A stretch of DNA of 42,482 bases. Source: Coriobacteriia bacterium. Its GTDB lineage: Bacteria > Actinomycetota > Coriobacteriia > Anaerosomatales > Anaerosomataceae. Where the stretch lies: positions 1-42,482 of the forward strand of contig JAFGAG010000028.1 in the NCBI GenBank assembly GCA_016933785.1. Direction: 5' to 3'. Made by a program: the position numbers and the translations under genes. The notes under the pieces are model-generated. The model did no database searches, was not told the origin of the DNA, and was given only the letters and a program-made list of their open reading frames with translations. Every line of letters begins with the position of its first letter. The first letter of the stretch is position 1. This document shows, piece after piece, positions 6,977-18,021 of this stretch.

Positions 6977-7303
6977 TCAGCCCTCGGTGCCGTCGGCCAC
7001 ATCCTTGCGGCCATCGATGATGTCCTGCATGACCTCGGTGATGAGATCGAATGCCTGGATGATCTTGGGGTTGGTGATCGCGTAGAAGATGCGGTTCCCC
7101 TCGCGGCGCGTCCGGACGACACCGGAGGACCGAAGGATCGCAAGGTGCTGCGAGAGTGTGGCCTGGGGGATGGCTGTCCGTTCATGGATCTCCGTGACGG
7201 TGATCTCACCGTCGCGAAGCGCGCTCAGTATCATCTGGCGCTTCGCGCTCGCGAGGGTCTTACACAGGTCCGAGTGCAGGCAGAAGAACTCGCTCTGGTC
7301 CAC
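6977..7303 (-). CDS. ArsR-family transcriptional regulator
   Basis: About 108 residues, a winged-helix protein with the ArsR recognition region VTEIHERTAIPQATLSQHLAILRSSGVVRTRREGNRIFYAI. GTG at 7303 is the likely start: GGAGGAG lies directly upstream, whereas the ATG at 7333 has no ribosome binding site and falls inside the palindromic operator. Two cysteines, C8 and C14, sit in the N-terminal helix; such residues can bind metal or sense persulfide, but canonical sensor pairs are not evident. It heads the DsrE2-TusA-DsrM-DsrK gene set and probably represses it in response to sulfur species or another thiol-reactive signal. It is divergent from the chemosensory operon. Confidence 0.88.
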   Translation of the reverse strand: MDQSEFFCLHSDLCKTLASAKRQMILSALRDGEITVTEIHERTAIPQATLSQHLAILRSSGVVRTRREGNRIFYAITNPKIIQAFDLITEVMQDIIDGRKDVADGTEG

Positions 7304-7312
7304 AACTCCTCC

Positions 7313-7338
7313 AGTACATTCGAATATGCGCATGTACT
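7313..7338. promoter_or_regulatory. 26-bp palindrome, probable ArsR operator
   Basis: Arms AGTACAT (7313-7319) and ATGTACT (7332-7338) are perfect inverted repeats; within the 12-base spacer four of six further base pairs are also symmetric, so 11 of 13 positions match. It abuts the ribosome binding site of the arsR gene and lies just downstream of its candidate promoter, the usual location for an autorepressor site. Confidence 0.7.
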
Positions 7339-7468: not shown

Positions 7469-7542
7469 TGTCGAGCAGCTGGTGATCAGTCGGCTGTATC
7501 GGTGCTTCCTGGTATCCGGCGGCGATCAGAGGGGTGCGACCT

Positions 7543-8283
7543 GTGGCGCTCGAGGGCAACCTCAGAGACTTCTCAATCGCGGACATGTTCCGTCTGCTCG
7601 CCACCGGTCGTAAGACGGGTACGCTGCATCTGGAGAGACCCGACGCACAGGGCAAGGTATGCTTCAAGAAGGGTCGCGTCTTCTTCGCCAGCTCGAACTG
7701 GCATCGCGAGTCGCTCGGCAGGCGTCTTGTGAAGGCGGCCGTCATCTCCGAGAAGCAACTCCGGCAGGCGCTCGGCCTGCAGAAGATCCAGAAGAAGGAG
7801 AAGGCGGGGCGCCGTCTCGGGCAGATCCTCGTCGACGAGGGCTATCTGGACGGGCGCGTGCTCGAGTCTTTCATCCAGGAGCAGATCAACGACACGCTCT
7901 TCGACCTTTTCCGCTGGGAAGAGGGAGAGCTCAGGTTCGAGCCGGACGAGACGTGTGATGACGAGGACATCGGCATCTCCGTGTCGGTTGAGAACATCAT
8001 CATGGAGGCTTCACGGCGTCTTGAACTGTGGAGCCGCATAAAGCAGAAGATCCCGAACATGGACACCGAGTTCATCATGGCGTCCGCGCCCGGAGACAAG
8101 TCGATGGAGATCCATCTCAAGCCCCGCGAGTGGATGTTGCTGTGCTATCTGCATGGTGGCCGCTCGGTCCGCGAGCTGGTGGACCTCACCGGCTACAACG
8201 ACTTCGAGACCGCCAAGATCCTCTTCGGGATGCATGCGGCCGGCCTCATCGAGCGCATCGAAGAGGGTATGGGCGCCTCATGA
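7543..8283 (+). CDS. PATAN (DUF4388) domain protein with MshEN-like repeats
   Basis: About 246 residues. Residues 1-55 (MALEGNLRDFSIADMFRLLATGRKTG... then GRVFFASSN) match the PATAN/DUF4388 domain of PatA- and FrzZ-related response regulators. Residues 57-80 and 91-114 are two 24-residue segments of the form xLGxxLVxxGxIxxxxLxxxLxxQ; the second (RLGQILVDEG...ESFIQEQ) fits the c-di-GMP-binding MshEN motif closely, the first less well, and the spacer is longer than usual. The C-terminus (about 190-240) looks like a small winged-helix domain. GTG at 7543 is preferred to GTG at 7534 by ribosome-binding-site spacing and by the usual domain start. First gene of the chemosensory operon; probably an adaptor or second-messenger input. 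Confidence 0.82.
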   Translation: MALEGNLRDFSIADMFRLLATGRKTGTLHLERPDAQGKVCFKKGRVFFASSNWHRESLGRRLVKAAVISEKQLRQALGLQKIQKKEKAGRRLGQILVDEGYLDGRVLESFIQEQINDTLFDLFRWEEGELRFEPDETCDDEDIGISVSVENIIMEASRRLELWSRIKQKIPNMDTEFIMASAPGDKSMEIHLKPREWMLLCYLHGGRSVRELVDLTGYNDFETAKILFGMHAAGLIERIEEGMGAS

Positions 8284-8302: not shown

Positions 8303-9877
8303 ATGCTGAACGAAGGCTTCGCCAAGGACCTGGATGTCGAGGAGTTCCGCCGATTCCGGGACCTTATCCACCGTCACTCCGGGATATACCTCGAAGAGTC
8401 CAAGCTCGACTCGCTGCGGATCTCGCTCGTGACGCGTGCGACCCGTCTCGGCTACTACACGTTCGGCGAGTACCTCGATGCGCTCGGCCGGGATGAGCGC
8501 GAGTTCAACGAACTCCTGAACCTCGTCACGATCAACGAGACGAGCTTCTTCCGGTTCCCGGGACAGTTCGATGCGCTGCGCGACGAGGTGCTTCCGGAGA
8601 TCATGGGCTCGCGGCCCGTGGGCAAACGCGATCTGCGCATCTGGTCGGCCGGGTGCTCGACCGGCGAGGAGCCGTATTCTCTGTCGATGCTGACACTCGA
8701 CATGGGGCTTGGCGCGAGCGGGTGGAGCCCACAGATCCTCGGCACGGATGTCTCCACGAAGGCTCTCGGGCGCGCCCGAGCGGGCGTCTACGGACGGCGC
8801 GCGATGATGAACGTGCCTCCTGACGTGGTGCAGCGGCACTTCGATCTCACGCCAACGGGTGACTACCGGGTCAACGACCGGGTGCGTGCCCAGGTGGACT
8901 TCGGCTACCAGAACCTGATCAAGGAGCCGTACCCGCTGTCACTCATGGGCAACTGGGACGTCATCTTCTGCCGGAACGTGACGATCTACTTCCGCATCGA
9001 GTCCACGCGCCGGGTCGTGCGCAACTTCTATGACAGCCTGAACGATGGCGGGTATCTGTTCATCGGGCACTCAGAGACGCTCACCTCGATCAGCGATGAT
9101 TTCGAGCCTGTGGAGATCGGCGGTGTCTTCCTGTACCGGAAGCCACCAGCCAAGCCGCTCTTCACGAGGGGGAGGCCGGCGCGCCTCACCGGTGAGAGCC
9201 GGCCGAAGGTCTCCGGGCCGGCTGGACTCACCGCGAGCCGATCAGTGCGGACGCCTCCGGAGGCCAAGGTCCCGGCACCACGCCAACGCCGCCAGACACC
9301 GCCAGCGGAGCCGCCCGTCGCGCCAGTCGCGTCACCTGCGGTGGCGGACACGGAGGAGAGTATCGAGGCGAGTCTGCAGCGTGCGCGCACGGACATGAAG
9401 GAGGGGCGTCCGGCGCAGGTGATCGTTGCTGCTGATCGGGTGCTCGAGCGTGACCCCAACAACGCGGACGCACACCTGCTGGTTGCATACGTCCATGCGG
9501 ACACGGGTGACTACGATGAGGCGCTCGCCGCATGTCACCGGGCGCTTGCCATCAACCCGCTGCTTCCGGTGGCCCGCTACATCCTCGGCATCATCCACCA
9601 GCGTCAGGGTGACGCGGTCCGTGCGATCAGCGAGTTGAAGAAGACAATCTACATCGACGCCGATTTCGCACTTGCACACCTGAACCTCGCGAACATCTAC
9701 AAGGCGCAACGCCAGTTCGATCTGGCCGCCAAAGAGTACGAGAACGCGCTGCGGGCGCTCAAGAAGAGTCCCGATGGCGACTGGACGGAGTTCTCCGGCG
9801 GGTTCCAAGCGGACCTGCTGGCCAGGACGTGTGAACGGAGTCTGATAGAGTGTCGGAAGACGGCTGGCAAGGGATAG
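8303..9877 (+). CDS. cheR: CheR methyltransferase with C-terminal TPR domain
   Basis: About 524 residues. The CheR N-terminal helical domain (about 10-80) is followed by the SAM-dependent methyltransferase domain: TINETSFFR, then RIWSAGCSTGEEPYSLSM (SAM-binding loop), LGTDVSTKAL, and WDVIFCRNVTIYF. A proline-rich linker (about 290-370) leads to three or more TPR repeats (VLERDPNNADAHLLVAYVHADTGDYDEALAACHRALAINP and following). The enzyme methylates receptor glutamates; TPR-bearing CheR proteins occur in non-flagellar and alternative chemosensory systems, where the TPR binds partners. It follows the PATAN gene by 19 bases and precedes a CheY-like gene. Confidence 0.93.
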   Translation: MLNEGFAKDLDVEEFRRFRDLIHRHSGIYLEESKLDSLRISLVTRATRLGYYTFGEYLDALGRDEREFNELLNLVTINETSFFRFPGQFDALRDEVLPEIMGSRPVGKRDLRIWSAGCSTGEEPYSLSMLTLDMGLGASGWSPQILGTDVSTKALGRARAGVYGRRAMMNVPPDVVQRHFDLTPTGDYRVNDRVRAQVDFGYQNLIKEPYPLSLMGNWDVIFCRNVTIYFRIESTRRVVRNFYDSLNDGGYLFIGHSETLTSISDDFEPVEIGGVFLYRKPPAKPLFTRGRPARLTGESRPKVSGPAGLTASRSVRTPPEAKVPAPRQRRQTPPAEPPVAPVASPAVADTEESIEASLQRARTDMKEGRPAQVIVAADRVLERDPNNADAHLLVAYVHADTGDYDEALAACHRALAINPLLPVARYILGIIHQRQGDAVRAISELKKTIYIDADFALAHLNLANIYKAQRQFDLAAKEYENALRALKKSPDGDWTEFSGGFQADLLARTCERSLIECRKTAGKG

Positions 9878-9945: not shown

Positions 9946-10326
9946 ATGGCAGGCGCGCGGATCCTCGCGGTCGACGACAGCCCTACCATCCTCGAGATGA
10001 TCAAGGCGATCCTTCTCGCGGGTGGCTACGATGTGATCACCGCTTCAGACGGCGCAGAAGCGCTCGAGACCGCGCGAGCCGAGAAGCCCGACCTGATCTT
10101 GCTGGACGTGATGCTCCCGAAGCTTGATGGCTATCGAGTGTGCCGTCTGCTGAAGTTCGATCAGAACTACAAGCAGATCCCCATCATCATGCTCACCGCC
10201 AAGACGGAGGAGCAGGCGATGGCGACCGGCATCAGAACTGGCGCCAACCAGTACCTCACGAAGCCTGTCGAACCCGACACGCTGCTCGCCGCGGTGGCGG
10301 AAGAGCTGTCCAAGGCGCAGGGTTAG
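9946..10326 (+). CDS. CheY-like single-domain response regulator
   Basis: A 126-residue stand-alone receiver domain. Acidic pair D10/D11, phosphoacceptor D54 (ILLDVMLP), T84 and K106 (TKP) are all present, so it should be phosphorylated by the CheA encoded downstream. The LLDVMLPKLDGYRVCRLLK form is closer to PilG/PilH and DivK-type regulators than to flagellar CheY. GGAGGGAG precedes the ATG. It lies directly upstream of the PilB-like pseudo-ATPase, its most obvious candidate partner. Confidence 0.92.
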   Translation: MAGARILAVDDSPTILEMIKAILLAGGYDVITASDGAEALETARAEKPDLILLDVMLPKLDGYRVCRLLKFDQNYKQIPIIMLTAKTEEQAMATGIRTGANQYLTKPVEPDTLLAAVAEELSKAQG

Positions 10327-10336
10327 GGGAGCGCCG

Positions 10337-12187
10337 ATGTCGCCGGGTAGCGGGATCTCCCGCCGGGTCCTCGACGGCCTCGTCGAGGCCGGTCTGATGA
10401 CTGCCGAGCAGGCGGGCGGCGTTGTCGATGCCGCACGTGCCGCAGGGACGCACGAGGGTACCATCCTCACGGAGCGTGCATACGTGAGTCCCTTTGACGT
10501 GATGTCCGTTCTGGAGCACGAGATGGGTGTCCCGCAGGTCGATCTGGCGAGTTACGCCCCTGAAGACGACGCGCTCGCGCTCGTGTCCGCCTCGGTCGCC
10601 CGGTCGTACAGGGCACTCCCGCTCTTCGAGATCGAAGGCATGCTCACGGTCGCCGTGGGTGACCCGATGGACGTGTTCGGTCTCGATGCGGTGTCCGGTC
10701 TCATCGGGCTCGAGGTCGAGGCGGTCCTTGCGGATCCTGTGTCGGTCGACAACGCGCTCGACCAGTACTACGGGGCTGCCGCCGATGCGACGGCCGAAGG
10801 CCCGTCGACGCCGCTGGCGCCGGGGGGGATCTCCGGGGACGGAGAAGTCGTAGAGGCCTCTGACTTCTTCGATGAGCCGCTCGACCAGACGCCCGCCGTC
10901 CCCGTCGCACCCGTCGAGGACAGCGCACCGGTCGAAGCCCCCGTCGCGATCAGCGAGACGATGGAGCAGATGGCCGCCGAGCAGACGGCGCGGAGCGGTC
11001 CTGCCGCGATCGATCTCGACGTGCTCGCGGTGGCCGACACACGCAAGGTCGCCGTGCTGGTGGCCGACATCCTCGATCACGCGGTGGCCCGAGGTGCGAG
11101 CCGCATCCACCTCCTGCCGTACAAGGACGACTTCTTCCTGGTGTACCGGATCAAGGGTGGCCTCGAGAAGATCGCCTCAGCACCTCTTTCGATGCAAGGC
11201 GGGCTGGTCGAGGGGTTCAAACAGTTCGCGCACCTTGGCGGTGTGCCTGCCACGCGGCCGGCCCTCGGCAGGGTGCACACCCACATCGGCGACAAGGACC
11301 TCGTGCTCACCGTCTCGGTGGTGCCCACGATCTCGGGCCAACGGCTCGTGGTCTCGCTCTCGGCGTTCAAGCCGCAGCCGCGGGGCCTCGAGGAGCTCGG
11401 AGTCTCAGATGCAGAGGCCCGCGCACTCCGCGCGATGGTGGAGCGCGGTCGTGGCATCCTGCTCGTCTGTGCTCCCGTGGCCGGCGGAGCGAGCGCGACT
11501 TACTACGCGCTTCTCGCGCATGCGGCCTCGGCGGGGAAGACCGTCTACTCGGTGGAACAGTCGATCGAGCACGAGATTCCTGCGGTGGCGCAGGTGATGA
11601 TCGAACCGGGCGGTCTCTCGTCGGCCGCGTACATCGCCGCGGGTATGCGACAGGACACCGACGTCATCGCCGTGGACGGGCTGCGCGGTGTCGAGGACGT
11701 CCATCTTGCGGTCGAGGCGGCGGGCATGGGCAAGTTGGTGGTAGCCACCTTCCCGGCCGCCGACATCGCCTCGGGTGTCTGGCGCATGCTTGAGCTTGGT
11801 GCCGAGCCCCACAGTCTGGCTGCGGCGCTCACGCTCGGTGTCGGTCAGCGGCTCGTTCGGCTGAACTGCCCAAACTGCTCCATGGAGACCGATGGGCAGC
11901 TCGCGTCGCGTATCCCTGGCGCCCCCGTCGGGCTGCACGACAAGGCCGGCACAGGGTGCCCCAACTGTGGCAAGAGCGGATTCCGGGGAGCGACAGCCAT
12001 CCACGAGGTCCTCCCGTTCACCGAGCCTGTACGCGCCGTCGTCGGCAGGGCTACGGGCGCTGCCGACATCTCGGCTGCGGCGGCCGCGGCGGGTATGCGG
12101 CCACTTGCCGCCGCCGGGCTATCAAGGGTCAAGACCGGCGAGGTCAGTGCCGAGGAACTGAACAGAGTCCTCCGCTTCACCGGGTGA
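10337..12187 (+). CDS. PilB/GspE-like protein with all ATPase motifs degenerate (pseudo-ATPase)
   Basis: 616 residues. Residues 1-145 resemble the MshEN (GspE N-terminal) domain with degraded c-di-GMP motifs; 150-225 is an acidic, Pro/Ala-rich linker; 235-616 follows the PilB/GspE motor core. The zinc site is intact: C511/C514 and C541/C544 (CPNC twice). However, the Walker A segment reads CAPVAGGASAT, with Ala385 where the catalytic Lys should be; the Walker B region reads DVIAVDGLRG instead of DxxxVGEIRD; the Asp box (DPxE) and the His box (HTND, here FPAAD) are lost. ATP hydrolysis is therefore not expected. The ORF is uninterrupted and long, and tightly packed in the che operon, so it is not a pseudogene. 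Probably a scaffold or phospho-regulator target linked to type IV pili. Confidence 0.88.
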   Translation: MSPGSGISRRVLDGLVEAGLMTAEQAGGVVDAARAAGTHEGTILTERAYVSPFDVMSVLEHEMGVPQVDLASYAPEDDALALVSASVARSYRALPLFEIEGMLTVAVGDPMDVFGLDAVSGLIGLEVEAVLADPVSVDNALDQYYGAAADATAEGPSTPLAPGGISGDGEVVEASDFFDEPLDQTPAVPVAPVEDSAPVEAPVAISETMEQMAAEQTARSGPAAIDLDVLAVADTRKVAVLVADILDHAVARGASRIHLLPYKDDFFLVYRIKGGLEKIASAPLSMQGGLVEGFKQFAHLGGVPATRPALGRVHTHIGDKDLVLTVSVVPTISGQRLVVSLSAFKPQPRGLEELGVSDAEARALRAMVERGRGILLVCAPVAGGASATYYALLAHAASAGKTVYSVEQSIEHEIPAVAQVMIEPGGLSSAAYIAAGMRQDTDVIAVDGLRGVEDVHLAVEAAGMGKLVVATFPAADIASGVWRMLELGAEPHSLAAALTLGVGQRLVRLNCPNCSMETDGQLASRIPGAPVGLHDKAGTGCPNCGKSGFRGATAIHEVLPFTEPVRAVVGRATGAADISAAAAAAGMRPLAAAGLSRVKTGEVSAEELNRVLRFTG

Positions 12188-12198
12188 AGGAGCCGCAG

Positions 12199-12774
12199 GT
12201 GCCGCCACGTGATCCGACCGACGAGCAAGGAGTCCAACCGGTGCTGCTGACCGATACGGAGACCGAGACGCCCTCACCGGGCGGTCTTGATGCGCTTGAC
12301 GAGACGCCAGCGGCACGCGTGATCGAGCGCGCGGTCGCGTTCCGCCTGGCGGGCCAGCTCTACGGTCTGCCGATCGACGTCGTCCAGGAGATCCAGCAAC
12401 TCGCCGAGCTGCTGCCGCTGCCAGACGACGCCCCCGCGCTCGTCGGGCTCATCGAGCTGCGTGGCGCTGTCGTCCCCGTGCTCGACCTGCGCTCGCTGGT
12501 CGGACTCGAGGACGCGCCATACACGCTCGAGACGCCGATGGTGTTCTGCAGGGCAAGCGGACACCAGGTCTGCTTGGTCGTCGACAGTGTCGAGGACGTC
12601 GTCGATCTGCCGCCCGATGGCGTGCAACAGCCGTCCGCTCTCTACACGCTCGCCGACAGGATGCTCGGCACGGTGAAGCTCGGCCAGGGCGTGCTGATGC
12701 TCCTTGACATCGACCGGCTTGTTCCTACGGCGGCTCTTGCCGTGGCCGAGGCGCAGGAGGTGGTCGACCGATGA
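12199..12774 (+). CDS. cheW: CheW-like coupling protein (first copy)
   Basis: 191 residues: an acidic N-terminal extension of about 40 residues and then a CheW domain (AVAFRLAGQLYGLPIDVVQEIQQL... LVGLIELRGAVVPVLDLRSLVGL... VCLVVDSVEDVVDLP). It couples receptors to CheA. GTG at 12199 is chosen because AAGGAG lies upstream at about seven bases and follows the stop of the preceding gene. The stop overlaps the start of the second cheW (ATGA). The PALVGLIELRG segment varies from the usual GxxNLRG, and this copy diverges from the second, suggesting distinct partners. Confidence 0.92.
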   Translation: MPPRDPTDEQGVQPVLLTDTETETPSPGGLDALDETPAARVIERAVAFRLAGQLYGLPIDVVQEIQQLAELLPLPDDAPALVGLIELRGAVVPVLDLRSLVGLEDAPYTLETPMVFCRASGHQVCLVVDSVEDVVDLPPDGVQQPSALYTLADRMLGTVKLGQGVLMLLDIDRLVPTAALAVAEAQEVVDR

Positions 12775-13346
12775 GCGCACACGAGCTGATGACGGCCAAC
12801 GCACTCGTGTCGGCGCAGGCGACCGAGATCCTGCGACGCAGGGCGGCTTCGCTCGCACAGGCGCCGGACGACGCGGTCTCGGTCGAATCCACCGGTCTCC
12901 TGAAGTTCAGGCTCGGGCAGGAGTGGTATGCGGTGCCGATCGCGATGGTCCGCGAGATCCACAACGAATATGCCATCACCCGCATCCCACGGGTGCCCGA
13001 CTACATCCTGGGCGTGGTCAACGTGCGAGGCGAGATCGTCTCGGTGACCGATCTCGCCGCTCTCATCCGCGTGCCGAGCCGGGTTGCGCTCGACATCGAC
13101 GATGAGCTGCCGTCGGCCATCATCGTCGCCAATGAGACCTGCGTCTCAGCGCTCGTCGTGGACGAGATCGGCGACATCATCGACGTCGCCCGGGAGGCGA
13201 TCGAGCCGCCGCTCTCCACGCTGGACAAAGCACAGGCTGAGTACATGAGCGGCTCCGTGTTCGTCGACGGCCTGCTCATCGGTGTCGTCAACATCGAGAA
13301 GATACTGGAACCCATCGGTGAGTCGCATGACGGGAGAGCATCATGA
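12771..13346 (+). CDS. cheW: CheW-like coupling protein (second copy)
   Basis: 191 residues with an N-terminal helical extension of about 40 residues and a canonical CheW domain: [45 protein letters not shown] and [16 protein letters not shown]. The conserved GVVNVRG turn indicates a normal receptor/kinase coupling function. It overlaps both neighbours by four bases (ATGA at each end), implying tight translational coupling with the first cheW and the MCP gene. Confidence 0.94.
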
Positions 13347-14569
13347 TCAAAGAGTGGATCGAGAAGTCCAGAAGCAGCTTCCTGGTGAAGTACACGCTCA
13401 TGAGTCTGACCATGGTGTTCGTGGCGAATGCGGTCCAGCTGCTCGCGGCATGGCTCATCTTCGGCAAGGACCTCAGTGGCATCGAGGGAATCGTCGGCAA
13501 GGTTGCAGCGGTGGTGGCGATCTTCATCGCGACACTGGCGCTGCTGGCGATCGTCCAGTCGGCGATCGGCCGGCGCATGATGGCGCCGCTCACGGCCGTC
13601 GTCGAGAGCATCAAGCGCGCATGTCAGAGCGAGATCGGACACAAAGTCACCGCGGACTCGCGGGACGAGTTCGGTACCCTCTCCCGGTCGTACAACCAGC
13701 TGCTCGACTTGATCATCTACCTGCTGAGCCAGATGCAGGATTCGTCGTCGCGGCTTGCCGGCACGTCGACCGAGATCCTTTCGGCCACCGAGCAGCAGGC
13801 GAGCGGTGCGGCCGAGCAGGCTGCCTCGATCAGTGAGACGACCGCGACGATGGAGGAGCTCGCAGCCACCTACCGGCAGATCGCCGAGAACGCGAACCAG
13901 GTCGTCAAGATGGCCGAGGCATCGCTCGGCAGCGCCGAGAACGGGCAGCAGTCGGTCATGAGCACCCTCGGCTCGATGGAGCAGATCAAGGCGCGCGCGC
14001 AGTCATCGGCGGCCAAGATCCTGCAGCTGGGCGAGCGCAGCCAGCAGATCGGCCAGGTCCTGGTGATGATCAACAGCATCGCCGACCAGACGAAGATCCT
14101 CGCCCTCAACGCGGCGATCGAGGCGGCGCGGGCCGGCGAGGCCGGCAAGGGCTTCAGTGTCGTCGCTGTAGAGATCCGCAAACTCGCCGAGTCGGTCGTG
14201 CAGTCGACCGGCGAGATCGAGACGATCATGACCGAGATCCAGGGCGCCGCGAACGAGCTCGTCATCTCGACCGAGCAGGAGCTCAAGCAGGTGGAGAGCG
14301 GCGTCGACCTCGCGCAGACAACGGGCGACAGCTTTGAGGCGATCCTGGACACCATCGAGCAGACCACTGCGGCCGCCAAGGAGATCTCCGCGGCCACGCA
14401 GCAACAGCGCAGTGCGACCGAACAGGTCGTCAAGGCGATGCGTGAAGTCGCCTCCGTGGCCCAGCAGACCGCAGCAGCATCGCGACAGGTGGCCGGTGCT
14501 GCCGAAGGACTCACATCGCTTGCGAACGAATCGAGGCAGATCGGCTCGGCCTTCACCATCGTCAGCTAG
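13343..14569 (+). CDS. Methyl-accepting chemotaxis protein without a large sensory domain
   Basis: 408 residues. Two membrane segments (about 17-40 and 52-72) are separated by only about a dozen residues, so there is no extracytoplasmic ligand-binding domain. A HAMP-like region (about 73-130) leads to a long coiled-coil signalling domain whose tip, [38 protein letters not shown], is the conserved CheA/CheW contact. Glu/Gln-rich pairs suitable for CheR/CheB modification are present in both arms. Signals probably come from the membrane, from HAMP, or through another protein of the operon rather than from a soluble ligand. Confidence 0.93.
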
Positions 14570-14599: not shown

Positions 14600-16939
14600 A
14601 TGGTCGAATTCGACCGTTCGGCGTTCATCGCCAAGTTCCAGGAGGAGGCCACCGACCTCCTCCAGAGACTCAACGAGGGGATCATCACGCTGGAGGCGGA
14701 GCCGGGCAACCGCCCGCTCGTCGACCAGTGGCTCCGTGACGCCCACACACTCAAGGGCTCCTCGCGGATGGTGGGCCTCATCGAGATCTCGGACATCGCA
14801 CACCGCATGGAAGACATCATGGTGAAGGTGCGCGACGGCGACATGCCCTACACCCCGGAGATGACCGACAGCTTCTTCGAAGCGCTCGATGCGGTCGTCT
14901 ACCTGGCCGAGAACGCAGGCAAGTCCGCAGCCGACGATTACGATGTCGTCGAGCTCACCGATCGACTCGCATCGCTCGCGGCGACCGGCGTGCCGCAGGC
15001 AGCGCCTGCGGTGAAGACCGAGCCGGCGGGGCCGGTCGATGAGCCGCAGCAACCTGCGTCGCCGGCCGGAGAGCCGGGGCCCGAGCTCGACGCCCTTCCT
15101 GCCGAGGACGATGAGTCGGCGGTGGCAGACGAGGACGTGACCCCGACGGCCGACGGGCAGTCGGCGGCCCGTGGCGAGGCGCTGCACAGCAAGACGCAGG
15201 CGACCGTCCGCATCCGCACGAGCCAGGTCGACCGGCTGCTGAACCTCGTGAGCGAGGTCGTCATCTCACAGATCAAAGAGGAGCAGCGCGTCCGCGATCT
15301 CAGGCTGGCCGCCGGGCTGTCGGTAGAGATGCAGCAGCTCTGGTCACGGCTGCGCTCCACGATGTCGATCCTGCCGATCGACGAGCAGAATCTGCTGAGT
15401 GCGGACATGAAGATGTTTGATGACCTTCTGAGCACGCAGCGCAAGTCCCTCGGGGCGATCTCCAAGGCCTATGCGGACGACACGTCTCGCACCTCGGCGG
15501 TCGTCGGCGATCTGCAGGAGCAGGCGATGGAACTCCGCATGCTCCCGGTGAGCACGGTGTTCAACACGTTCCCGCGCGCGATGCGCGACCTCGCCCGGCA
15601 GTACAACAAAGATGTCGAACTGGTCATCCAGGGCGGGGACACCGAGCTCGACAAGAAGGTCCTCGAGGAGATCAACGATCCACTCGTGCATATCATGCGC
15701 AACGCCGTAGACCACGGCATCGAGCCGGCGGCCGATCGCGTGGCGGCGGGGAAGCCGGCAAAAGGCACGATCAACCTCTCGGCGCGGCAGGAGGGTGACC
15801 ACATCGTCATCGAGGTCTCGGATGACGGCGCTGGCATCGACCCGGGACGCGTCAAGGCGGCCGCCATCCGGAAGGGCTACCTCACGGAGTCCGAAGCCAA
15901 GGCGATGAGCGACCGGGAAGCCCGCTACCTCATCTTCGAGAAGGGCTTCTCGACGGCCGCGATCATCACCGAGCTATCCGGGCGCGGCGTGGGCATGGAC
16001 GTCGTCCGCGAGTTCGTCGTCGAACGGCTGAAGGGCTCGCTCGATGTCGAATCCGAGTTCGGTAAGGGAACGAGGTTCCGCCTCACGATCCCGCTCACGC
16101 TGGCGATCATCCGGGCGCTGCTGCTCCGGGTGAGCGGACAGACCTTCGCCCTCCCGACCGCGTCGATCGAGGAGACGGCGCGTGTGGAGCCCTCGGAGAT
16201 CATCAAGGTCGAGGGACATGAGGTCATCAGGCGTCAGCGGCGCACGATCCCGCTCGTACCGCTGAGGGACATCCTCGGTCTGGACACGGTGGAACCCGAG
16301 CATGCGAGCTCGAAGATCCCGGTGGCCACGCTCTCGTTCTCCGGACACCGCATCGGCCTGCTCGTCGACGCGTTCGTGGGGGAGCAGCAGATCGTCATCA
16401 AGACGCTCGGTACCCACTTGAAGCGCGTGGACAACGTCGCGGGTGTGACGATCCTCGGCGCCGGTGAAGTGGTGCCGATCCTGAACGTGCCGGACCTGAT
16501 GACCAACGGACGCCAACTCACGGGCGCCCGCATGCGGCGGGCGACACAGGTCAAAGAGAAGGTCGCCGGACCGAGCAGGATCCTCATCTGTGAAGACTCC
16601 TTCACCACACGCGAGTTGGAGCGGTCGATCTTCGAGGCCGCGGGCTATGACGTGGAGACCGCAACCGACGGTGCGATGGGTCTCGCACGGCTGCGTGAAG
16701 GGCTCAACCCCGACGCGGTCGTCACCGACGTCCAGATGCCCAACATGACCGGCTTCGAACTCACCAAGGCGATCAAGTCGGACGATATGCTGGCGCACAT
16801 CCCCGTGATCATCGTCACGTCGCTCGAACGCGAGGAGGAGAAGGCCGAGGGCATCAACGCCGGTGCGGATGCATACATCACCAAGTCGGTCTTCAACCAG
16901 GACACGCTGCTTGAAACGGTCGAGCGACTCATTCGATGA
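14600..16939 (+). CDS. cheA: CheA histidine kinase with C-terminal receiver domain
   Basis: 779 residues. HPt domain (about 1-105) with phosphoacceptor H49 in AHTLKGSSRMVG; an acidic linker (about 130-195) in place of a recognisable CheY-binding P2 domain; dimerisation domain; HATPase domain with HIMRNAVDHGIEP (N box), DDGAGID (G1) and GRGVGMDVV (G2); CheW-like domain; and a receiver domain (about 655-779) with acceptor Asp in VVTDVQMPN and Lys in TKS. CheA-REC fusions are typical of FrzE and Pil-Chp-type systems, where the receiver may act as a phosphate sink. GAAGGAG precedes the ATG, 30 bases after the MCP gene. Confidence 0.95.
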   Translation: MVEFDRSAFIAKFQEEATDLLQRLNEGIITLEAEPGNRPLVDQWLRDAHTLKGSSRMVGLIEISDIAHRMEDIMVKVRDGDMPYTPEMTDSFFEALDAVVYLAENAGKSAADDYDVVELTDRLASLAATGVPQAAPAVKTEPAGPVDEPQQPASPAGEPGPELDALPAEDDESAVADEDVTPTADGQSAARGEALHSKTQATVRIRTSQVDRLLNLVSEVVISQIKEEQRVRDLRLAAGLSVEMQQLWSRLRSTMSILPIDEQNLLSADMKMFDDLLSTQRKSLGAISKAYADDTSRTSAVVGDLQEQAMELRMLPVSTVFNTFPRAMRDLARQYNKDVELVIQGGDTELDKKVLEEINDPLVHIMRNAVDHGIEPAADRVAAGKPAKGTINLSARQEGDHIVIEVSDDGAGIDPGRVKAAAIRKGYLTESEAKAMSDREARYLIFEKGFSTAAIITELSGRGVGMDVVREFVVERLKGSLDVESEFGKGTRFRLTIPLTLAIIRALLLRVSGQTFALPTASIEETARVEPSEIIKVEGHEVIRRQRRTIPLVPLRDILGLDTVEPEHASSKIPVATLSFSGHRIGLLVDAFVGEQQIVIKTLGTHLKRVDNVAGVTILGAGEVVPILNVPDLMTNGRQLTGARMRRATQVKEKVAGPSRILICEDSFTTRELERSIFEAAGYDVETATDGAMGLARLREGLNPDAVVTDVQMPNMTGFELTKAIKSDDMLAHIPVIIVTSLEREEEKAEGINAGADAYITKSVFNQDTLLETVERLIR

Positions 16940-18021
16940 CTCCAGGGGGAGATGTGTCTCAATCCGAAGAGGGGGCGAAGATCCGGGTAGTCGTTGCTGA
17001 CGACTCTCCGGTCGCACGCGAGATGTTGTTGCAGATCCTCGCGAGCGATCCGGACATCGAGGTCGTCGGTACGGCTACGAACGGGCAGGAGGCGGTCGAT
17101 GCGGTAGCGCGTCTGCAGCCGGACCTCATCACGATGGACATCCACATGCCCACGATGGATGGGCTTGAGGCGACCGAGCGGATCATGGCCTACACGCCGA
17201 CGCCGATCCTGGTCGTCTCGTCGTCAGTCTACGGTGAGGGGATGGGCCACGCTTTCGACGCACTTGCGATCGGGGCCCTCGAGGTCATCAAGAAGCCGGA
17301 ACCCAAGGACTGGGCGGCTTTGGGGAGCATCGCGAGAGAGATCATACGCACGGTGAAGATCCTCTCGCGCGTCAAGGTCATCACGCATATCCGTGGTCGC
17401 CGGTCGCCGGCACATGGCGTCGCACCGATGGAGCCTGTGAGTGCGGTGCGTTCCAGGGCCGTGCGCATCATCGCGATCGGGTCCTCGACTGGTGGTCCGA
17501 CCGCACTCCTCAACGTGCTCGCACGCCTGCCGGAGGACCTGCCGGTGCCGGTCGTCATCGCGCAACACATCGCCGAAGGGTTCGTCCCCGGCCTTGCGTC
17601 GTGGCTCGATTCGGGCTCGAAGATCAGAGTCGTCGCCGCGGCCGAGGGAGACATCATGCATCCCGGTGTCGCGTACATGGCGACCACCGGCAGCAACATG
17701 CAGGTGGATGGTATGACGCTGCGGTTCACCAGGCCAGAACCAGGGCAGTTGTACATCCCCTCGGCGGACACGCTCTTCGAGTCGGTCGCGGTGAGCTATC
17801 ACGATCGGGCTATCGGCGTGCTGCTGACCGGGATGGGTGCGGATGGGGCGAACGGTCTCAAGATCCTCCACGATCGTGGCGCACACACCATCTGTCAGGA
17901 CGAGGTCACCAGCACCGTCTGGGGCATGCCGAAGGCCGCCATCGACCTCGGCGCCGCCGGTGCGGTCCTGCCGGTGCACGAGATCGCGGAGGCGATCGGC
18001 ACCATCATGTCAGGTGCCTGA
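16936..18021 (+). CDS. cheB: CheB protein-glutamate methylesterase/response regulator
   Basis: 361 residues. N-terminal receiver domain with acceptor D68 (ITMDIHMP) and a C-terminal methylesterase domain with the catalytic triad S184 (GSSTGG), H211 (AQHIAEG) and D303 (GMGADG). It removes methyl groups added by CheR and deamidates receptor glutamines. The ATG overlaps the cheA stop (ATGA); a GTG six codons later has a GGGGGAG sequence just upstream and is an alternative start. It closes the operon; no cheC, cheD or flagellar gene follows. Confidence 0.95.
   Translation: MTPGGDVSQSEEGAKIRVVVADDSPVAREMLLQILASDPDIEVVGTATNGQEAVDAVARLQPDLITMDIHMPTMDGLEATERIMAYTPTPILVVSSSVYGEGMGHAFDALAIGALEVIKKPEPKDWAALGSIAREIIRTVKILSRVKVITHIRGRRSPAHGVAPMEPVSAVRSRAVRIIAIGSSTGGPTALLNVLARLPEDLPVPVVIAQHIAEGFVPGLASWLDSGSKIRVVAAAEGDIMHPGVAYMATTGSNMQVDGMTLRFTRPEPGQLYIPSADTLFESVAVSYHDRAIGVLLTGMGADGANGLKILHDRGAHTICQDEVTSTVWGMPKAAIDLGAAGAVLPVHEIAEAIGTIMSGA

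Follow-up and report, generated by a model that had tools for sequence, protein, structure and literature searches.

A PilB-type pseudo-ATPase as a putative signaling component of a chemosensory operon in Anaerosomatales

It has long been an open question how type IV pilus motors come under chemosensory control. In an operon of an Anaerosomatales bacterium, a homolog of the pilus extension ATPase PilB, with most of its catalytic motifs altered, is encoded among the chemotaxis genes. What could such a protein do there? The few cultured Anaerosomatales live in the subsurface and respire hydrogen, sulfur, or iron. The window, i.e., the whole stretch of 42,482 nucleotides that was analyzed, is contig 13 of an assembly of 1.68 Mb (77% complete, contamination estimate 4.97%), and PilX is used here as a label for the 616-residue product of positions 10337-12187. 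The original prediction, made from the letters of the window, regarded this protein as a PilB repurposed either as a non-hydrolyzing scaffold or as an output/input element that joins CheA signaling to the pilus motor, perhaps by docking on the true PilB hexamer or mixing into it.

The operon runs on the + strand in the order DUF4388-CheR-CheY-PilX-CheW-CheW-MCP-CheA-CheB (Table 1) and holds a complete set of CheA, CheW, CheY, MCP, CheR, and CheB. As had been noted, the pilX frame is intact and embedded in the operon, with an ATG preceded by AGGGG only 10 bp past the cheY stop and a CheW gene next. The 44 orthologous MCPs (399–411 aa) have no sensor domain between their two adjacent membrane spans. 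The protein encoded by the first gene scores above the NF053729 cut-off and carries an MshEN-type c-di-GMP motif; its DUF4388 domain (PF14332) is one that we take to be of the PatA-N/PATAN type, an identity supported by the helical insertion. Among the operon proteins, the single-domain CheY evolves by far the most slowly (dN/dS ~0.01–0.04), which suggests several binding partners. Upstream of the operon lies a divergent gene for an ArsR-like repressor, which most genomes of the family have at the same place.

Table 1. Coordinates of the operon genes, the PilX sequence features and the upstream repressor gene within the window
Feature	Position	Strand	Remarks
ArsR-like repressor gene	6977..7333	-	
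DUF4388 protein	7534..8283	+	first operon gene; c-di-GMP motif located in helical insertion
CheR methyltransferase	8303..9877	+	C-terminal TPRs
CheY	9946..10326	+	single-domain
pilX, PilB-type pseudo-ATPase	10337..12187	+	616 aa; MshEN/N1D, low-complexity linker ~150-225, N2D, CTD
PilX N1D/MshEN region	10355..10783	+	residues 7-149
T325 codon	11309..11311	+	at arginine finger R271 of Geobacter PilB
S340 codon	11354..11356	+	at arginine finger R286 of Geobacter PilB
Degenerate Walker A	11471..11500	+	APVAGGASAT, residues 379-388, Ala385 for Lys
Altered Asp box	11543..11572	+	VYSVEQSIEH; E407 invariant, next Asp lost
Altered Walker B	11645..11692	+	MRQDTDVIAVDGLRGV; catalytic Glu lost, Asp447 invariant
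Altered His box	11726..11770	+	both His lost (Lys466, Pro473)
Zinc site	11867..11968	+	C511xxC514 ... C541xxC544; invariant in 49/49
CheW 1	12241..12774	+	GTG start, AAGGAG upstream; start inferred
CheW 2	12771..13346	+	
MCP	13343..14569	+	two adjacent membrane spans, no extracytoplasmic sensor domain
CheA kinase	14600..16939	+	C-terminal receiver domain
CheB methylesterase	16936..18021	+	

That PilX is a full-length PilB-like protein with an MshEN N-terminus and a tetracysteine zinc site, as originally proposed, was confirmed by Pfam matches (MshEN at residues 63–149, 63.6 bits; T2SSE at 234–610, 188.7 bits) and by the presence of the four cysteines in all 49 aligned orthologs. Its closest PDB sequences are Geobacter PilB chains (E ~1e-65), and its AlphaFold model, for which 44 orthologs served as input, has a mean pLDDT of 84.6 and a core similar to PilB/PilF structures (Foldseek, target TM up to 0.85). 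The full-length domain layout, the fold and the zinc tetracysteine site are thus shared with the type IV pilus PilB (TIGR02538) and GspE at ~30% identity, and the PilBs of its own genome are no closer (only ~30% as well). Against the PilB equivalog TIGR02538 it reaches 261.9 bits, below the NCBIfam cut-off of 675.65; judged by score and motifs, both of which fail, PilX is therefore a PilB homolog that falls outside the equivalog. A truncated or mis-called canonical PilB was rejected as an explanation, as three canonical PilBs are encoded elsewhere in the genome and a tree sets them apart from PilX.

Residues of PilX were placed on Geobacter PilB by alignment, with residue roles taken from PMC5424180, and were counted in an alignment of 49 PilX orthologs. 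The Walker A lysine is replaced by Arg (25 proteins), Ala (15), Ser (6), or Gly (3), so that the alanine reported originally is correct for this protein but is merely the local state of a lost lysine. The predicted alteration of the other boxes (Walker B, Asp box, and His box) was confirmed. Walker B reads AVDGLRG in PilX vs. MIGEIRD in canonical PilBs, with G, S, P, A, or T in place of the catalytic glutamate and an aspartate at position 447 in 49/49 orthologs, where canonical PilBs have glycine. In the His box (ATFPAAD vs. STLHTND), H413 has changed to K/R and H420 to P/S/A/T, while in the Asp box (SVEQS vs. TVEDP) the glutamate E407 is present in every ortholog, i.e., this box is only half lost. 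Two further losses had not been listed in the original prediction: both arginine fingers (R271 replaced by T/S/V, R286 by S/T/G/Q) and the c-di-GMP motif of the MshEN domain. Altogether, the Walker A lysine, the catalytic glutamate, both arginine fingers, and the His-box histidines are retained in 0/49 orthologs, which makes ATP hydrolysis by PilX very unlikely, and these losses likewise argue against PilX driving pilus extension by hydrolysis. Weak nucleotide binding may persist, notably in Arg-type proteins, because half of the orthologs have Arg at the Walker A position, E407 is kept, and D447 has been gained; in the Ala/Ser/Gly types it is doubtful. A sequencing artefact at 11480–11500 can be excluded since the same losses occur in all aligned orthologs from other genomes.

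Other parts of the domain were kept. R505 and R508 (= PilB R455) are found in 49/49 orthologs, and in PilB R455 contacts, at the empty interface, the packing unit next to it (PMC5424180). An above-average conservation of the former active site was not borne out, as its windows score 0.81 vs. 0.78 for the rest of the domain and 94 of 264 shifts score equally high. The c-di-GMP receptor motif of MshEN domains consists of two RLGxx...LxxQ motifs of 24 residues (PMC5013675), of which not even a relaxed form was matched by any of the 49 PilX proteins, the glycine of RLG being leucine in all of them; the canonical PilBs of the window genome have the relaxed motif once or twice each. A response of PilX to c-di-GMP was rejected on the ground of the missing motif. 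Although PilX is without this site, c-di-GMP could enter the system via the DUF4388 protein. As far as can be read from sequence, PilX retains the fold of PilB along with its N-terminal docking domain and zinc site, lacks every element for hydrolysis and c-di-GMP binding, and is selected and inherited within the CheA operon, and we consider it almost certainly a pseudo-enzyme.

PilX orthologs (53–87% identity over long matches) were found in 54 of the 61 genomes searched among relatives in the order Anaerosomatales, and a class-level search yielded matches in 58/398 genomes, all from the same order. The operon order is identical in every genome whose contig is long enough, and the synteny of a degenerate PilB with cheA and cheW, a check suggested with the original prediction, extends across the order. 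The CheA ortholog occurs in 53/61 genomes; both proteins are present in 52, neither in 6, and the 3 mismatches (G002, G028, and G036) are fragmented assemblies, with the contig ending inside the operon in the latter two. Four genomes without the PilX/CheA pair (G026, G040, G041, and G053) still encode PilM, hence the presence of PilX tracks the chemosensory system and not the pilus. Of seven close pairs, six gave a dN/dS of 0.05–0.11 for PilX and one gave 0.245, which is close to the range of CheA and CheB (values for CheA/CheB in L066/L068 and for CheB in L058/L061 were left out, as their aligned stretches were truncated or mismatched), and the protein is under purifying selection. It has been retained over very long evolutionary time in a chemotaxis-type operon after its catalytic loss, and very probably is a partner of this CheA system.

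Flagellar FlhA was found in 0/61 genomes, and a role in flagellar chemotaxis was rejected for this reason. Type IV pilus genes, the absence of which would have spoken against the original prediction, are present: outside the operon, the window genome encodes the three canonical PilBs, PilT-type ATPases, and PilM. Taken with the losses in 49/49 orthologs, this agrees with the predicted repurposing of a very probably non-hydrolyzing PilB tied to CheA, and a coupling of the PilX system to the pilus appears likely. In one locus of the window genome (L077:8170-13165), genes for Roadblock/LC7, a long DUF4388 protein, and a small GTPase come after a canonical PilB, and a PilB with a DUF4388 gene nearby was seen again in another class (L205, L209, and L210). 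Given this arrangement, the che operon looks like a signaling copy of a PilB/DUF4388 pilus-motor module. The two cultured members of the order have been described as rod-shaped, non-motile, and bearing pili-like appendages, which one of them forms only with ferrihydrite (PMC9686372). The regulated output is thus not obviously twitching, and attachment or pilus deployment is likelier than swimming.

The origin of PilX was traced with a phylum-level search and 36 genomes of another class, the set covered by class-level searches around each of G621, G677, and G611. Four genomes of this other class (G621, G677, G563, and G717) have a PilX homolog at the same operon position in which the P-loop lysine and the Walker B DE are kept, while the Asp box, the His box, and the two arginine fingers are missing. 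A fifth genome (G611, locus L180) has a CheA-MCP-CheB-CheR-CheY-PilB cluster with a fully intact PilB directly after CheY. Homologs with intact motifs in this setting, which were to count against the prediction, were seen in a limited form in another class (one intact, four half-decayed), and the claim stands for the clade itself. In a maximum-likelihood tree, which is unrooted and has two long half-decayed branches, the 4 half-decayed and 14 fully decayed proteins form a group with 100/100 support, all che-linked PilB-like proteins are split from 24 canonical PilBs (100/98), and the intact G611 protein sits at the junction of the decayed group with the canonical ones. In the simplest reading, the ancestor would have been an intact PilB already located in a che operon, and the pattern suggests that a motor resident in the chemosensory operon died stepwise. 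In G621 and G677, a small Ras/MglA-like GTPase is encoded between DUF4388 and CheR (L178:5803-6315, + strand, and L179:7483-8013, - strand), 31–40% related to the GTPase that neighbors DUF4388 within the pilus-motor cluster of the window genome. Its P-loop (GPFDAGRI, GPGKTEKT), switch II, and NKxP-like motifs are broken; it is likely a pseudo-GTPase beside a half-dead PilB, and a second NTPase of the pilus module therefore appears to have died at the same place. We regard it as an even bet that the chemosensory operon copied a part of the pilus module (PilB and DUF4388, plus an MglA-type GTPase in two genomes), followed by stepwise inactivation of the NTPases, and that the array employs these dead parts of the motor as subunits for docking or as decoys, independently of nucleotide.

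Our best overall explanation, held with about balanced confidence, is that PilX is a pseudo-ATPase derived from the pilus extension motor and now dedicated to a pilus-linked chemosensory system, in which it provides a PilB-like docking or decoy surface. The CheA/CheY signal would be carried by CheY and the DUF4388 (PATAN-type) protein, as judged from their families, and PilX would offer these two proteins a PilB-like surface that does not depend on nucleotide, whether it sits at or near the pilus base, docked on PilM/PilC, or acts unbound as a decoy; occupancy by PilX and its regulators would then set the place and time of pilus extension by the real PilBs. PATAN domains are known to bind PilB and to steer pilus extension in Synechocystis (PMC10519157, PMC7690835). 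We infer that the signal runs outward rather than inward, and gene order itself fits neither direction exclusively; the output-side docking or decoy role is put forward tentatively, at slightly less than even confidence.

The main rival is an input role, in which PilX mimics nucleotide-free PilB and reports the status of the pilus to MCP-CheW-CheA. In M. xanthus, where PilB acts upstream of the Dif chemosensory system, the hydrolysis-deficient Walker A form K327A is signaling-competent and the apo form was proposed to be the active one (PMC5544727), an MCP without ectodomain makes an internal input likely, and PilX adjoins CheW. The M. xanthus basis is, however, genetic epistasis with StkA placed between PilB and Dif and no direct contact, occupancy or docking would be the only means by which a permanently dead PilB could report, nucleotide state being unavailable to it, and the intact PilB of L180 comes after CheY, which suits output as well; we judge an input role unlikely, at roughly one chance in four. 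Less probable still is a mixed hexamer, in which a non-hydrolyzing PilX subunit slows or biases the true PilB. Such cooperation with a hydrolysis-dead motor subunit has a precedent in PilT/PilU (reviewed in PMC11656802), and R508 and the fold are retained, but the low identity to the PilBs of the same genome speaks against it, and the inter-protomer residues (both arginine fingers and the His box) are gone already at the half-decayed stage, which suggests that the shared active-site interface was abandoned early. A purely structural role within the chemosensory array, no longer connected to the pilus, would agree with the strict tie to CheA and with pilus genes occurring without PilX, yet it is quite improbable given that the zinc domain is conserved, as is N1D, through which PilB-type ATPases attach to the pilus base, that the genomes have pilus genes and no FlhA, and that a DUF4388 paralog adjoins a canonical PilB. 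A pseudogene or a sequencing or assembly artefact, which several altered motifs in a draft assembly might suggest, is refuted by 49/49 open aligned orthologs from many families of the order with the same losses and dN/dS well below 1.

The explanation of PilX as a docking or decoy component can be set beside known pilus-linked chemosensory systems such as Dif, Chp, and Pix, which the PilX system resembles. In cyanobacteria, pili are controlled by similar parts, i.e., the PATAN-CheY regulators PixE, PixG, and PilG acting on PilB1 (PMC7690835, PMC10519157), so that a chemosensory system, a PATAN-type domain, a CheY, and a PilB-type partner recur in the PilX system; here, in contrast, the DUF4388 protein lacks a receiver domain, and a dead PilB comes with the operon itself. 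Pseudomonas Pil-Chp shares a CheA-type kinase and a single-domain CheY, which there control PilB placement in surface behavior (PMC10519157), but its PilJ is signaled by PilA and no pseudo-PilB has been described, whereas here the MCP is without ectodomain. PilX differs from PilB/GspE in its missing catalytic and c-di-GMP elements and in being encoded in a che operon, and from M. xanthus, where one motor is bifunctional, in being a separate, naturally dead paralog. As stated in the original prediction, no equivalent system seems to have been described: literature searches found no PilB-type pseudo-ATPase in a chemosensory cluster in the open-access literature. The findings suggest that in these non-flagellated bacteria a dead pilus motor is a signaling part between sensor array and pili. 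A dead PilB in the operon, together with half-dead and active relatives, separates the signaling surface of PilB from its motor function, and the partners of PilX should also be those by which PilB is read or controlled. If this reading is true, PilX would be the natural counterpart of the engineered M. xanthus Walker A mutant, which signals without making pili, and dead motor parts as array subunits would be chemotaxis components of a hitherto undescribed kind.

Further pilus and chemosensory loci were observed in the window genome. On each of two contigs (L078:956-5179 and L079:7782-11972), a phosphopentomutase-like gene and a thymidine-phosphorylase-like gene come after a PilB, and this pair represents either paralogs or strain mixing in the assembly. 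A second CheA is encoded on contig G000:C19 (L081:3025-15789), shared with a PilT-like ATPase and an MCP, i.e., the genome holds at least one further chemosensory cluster near pilus genes.
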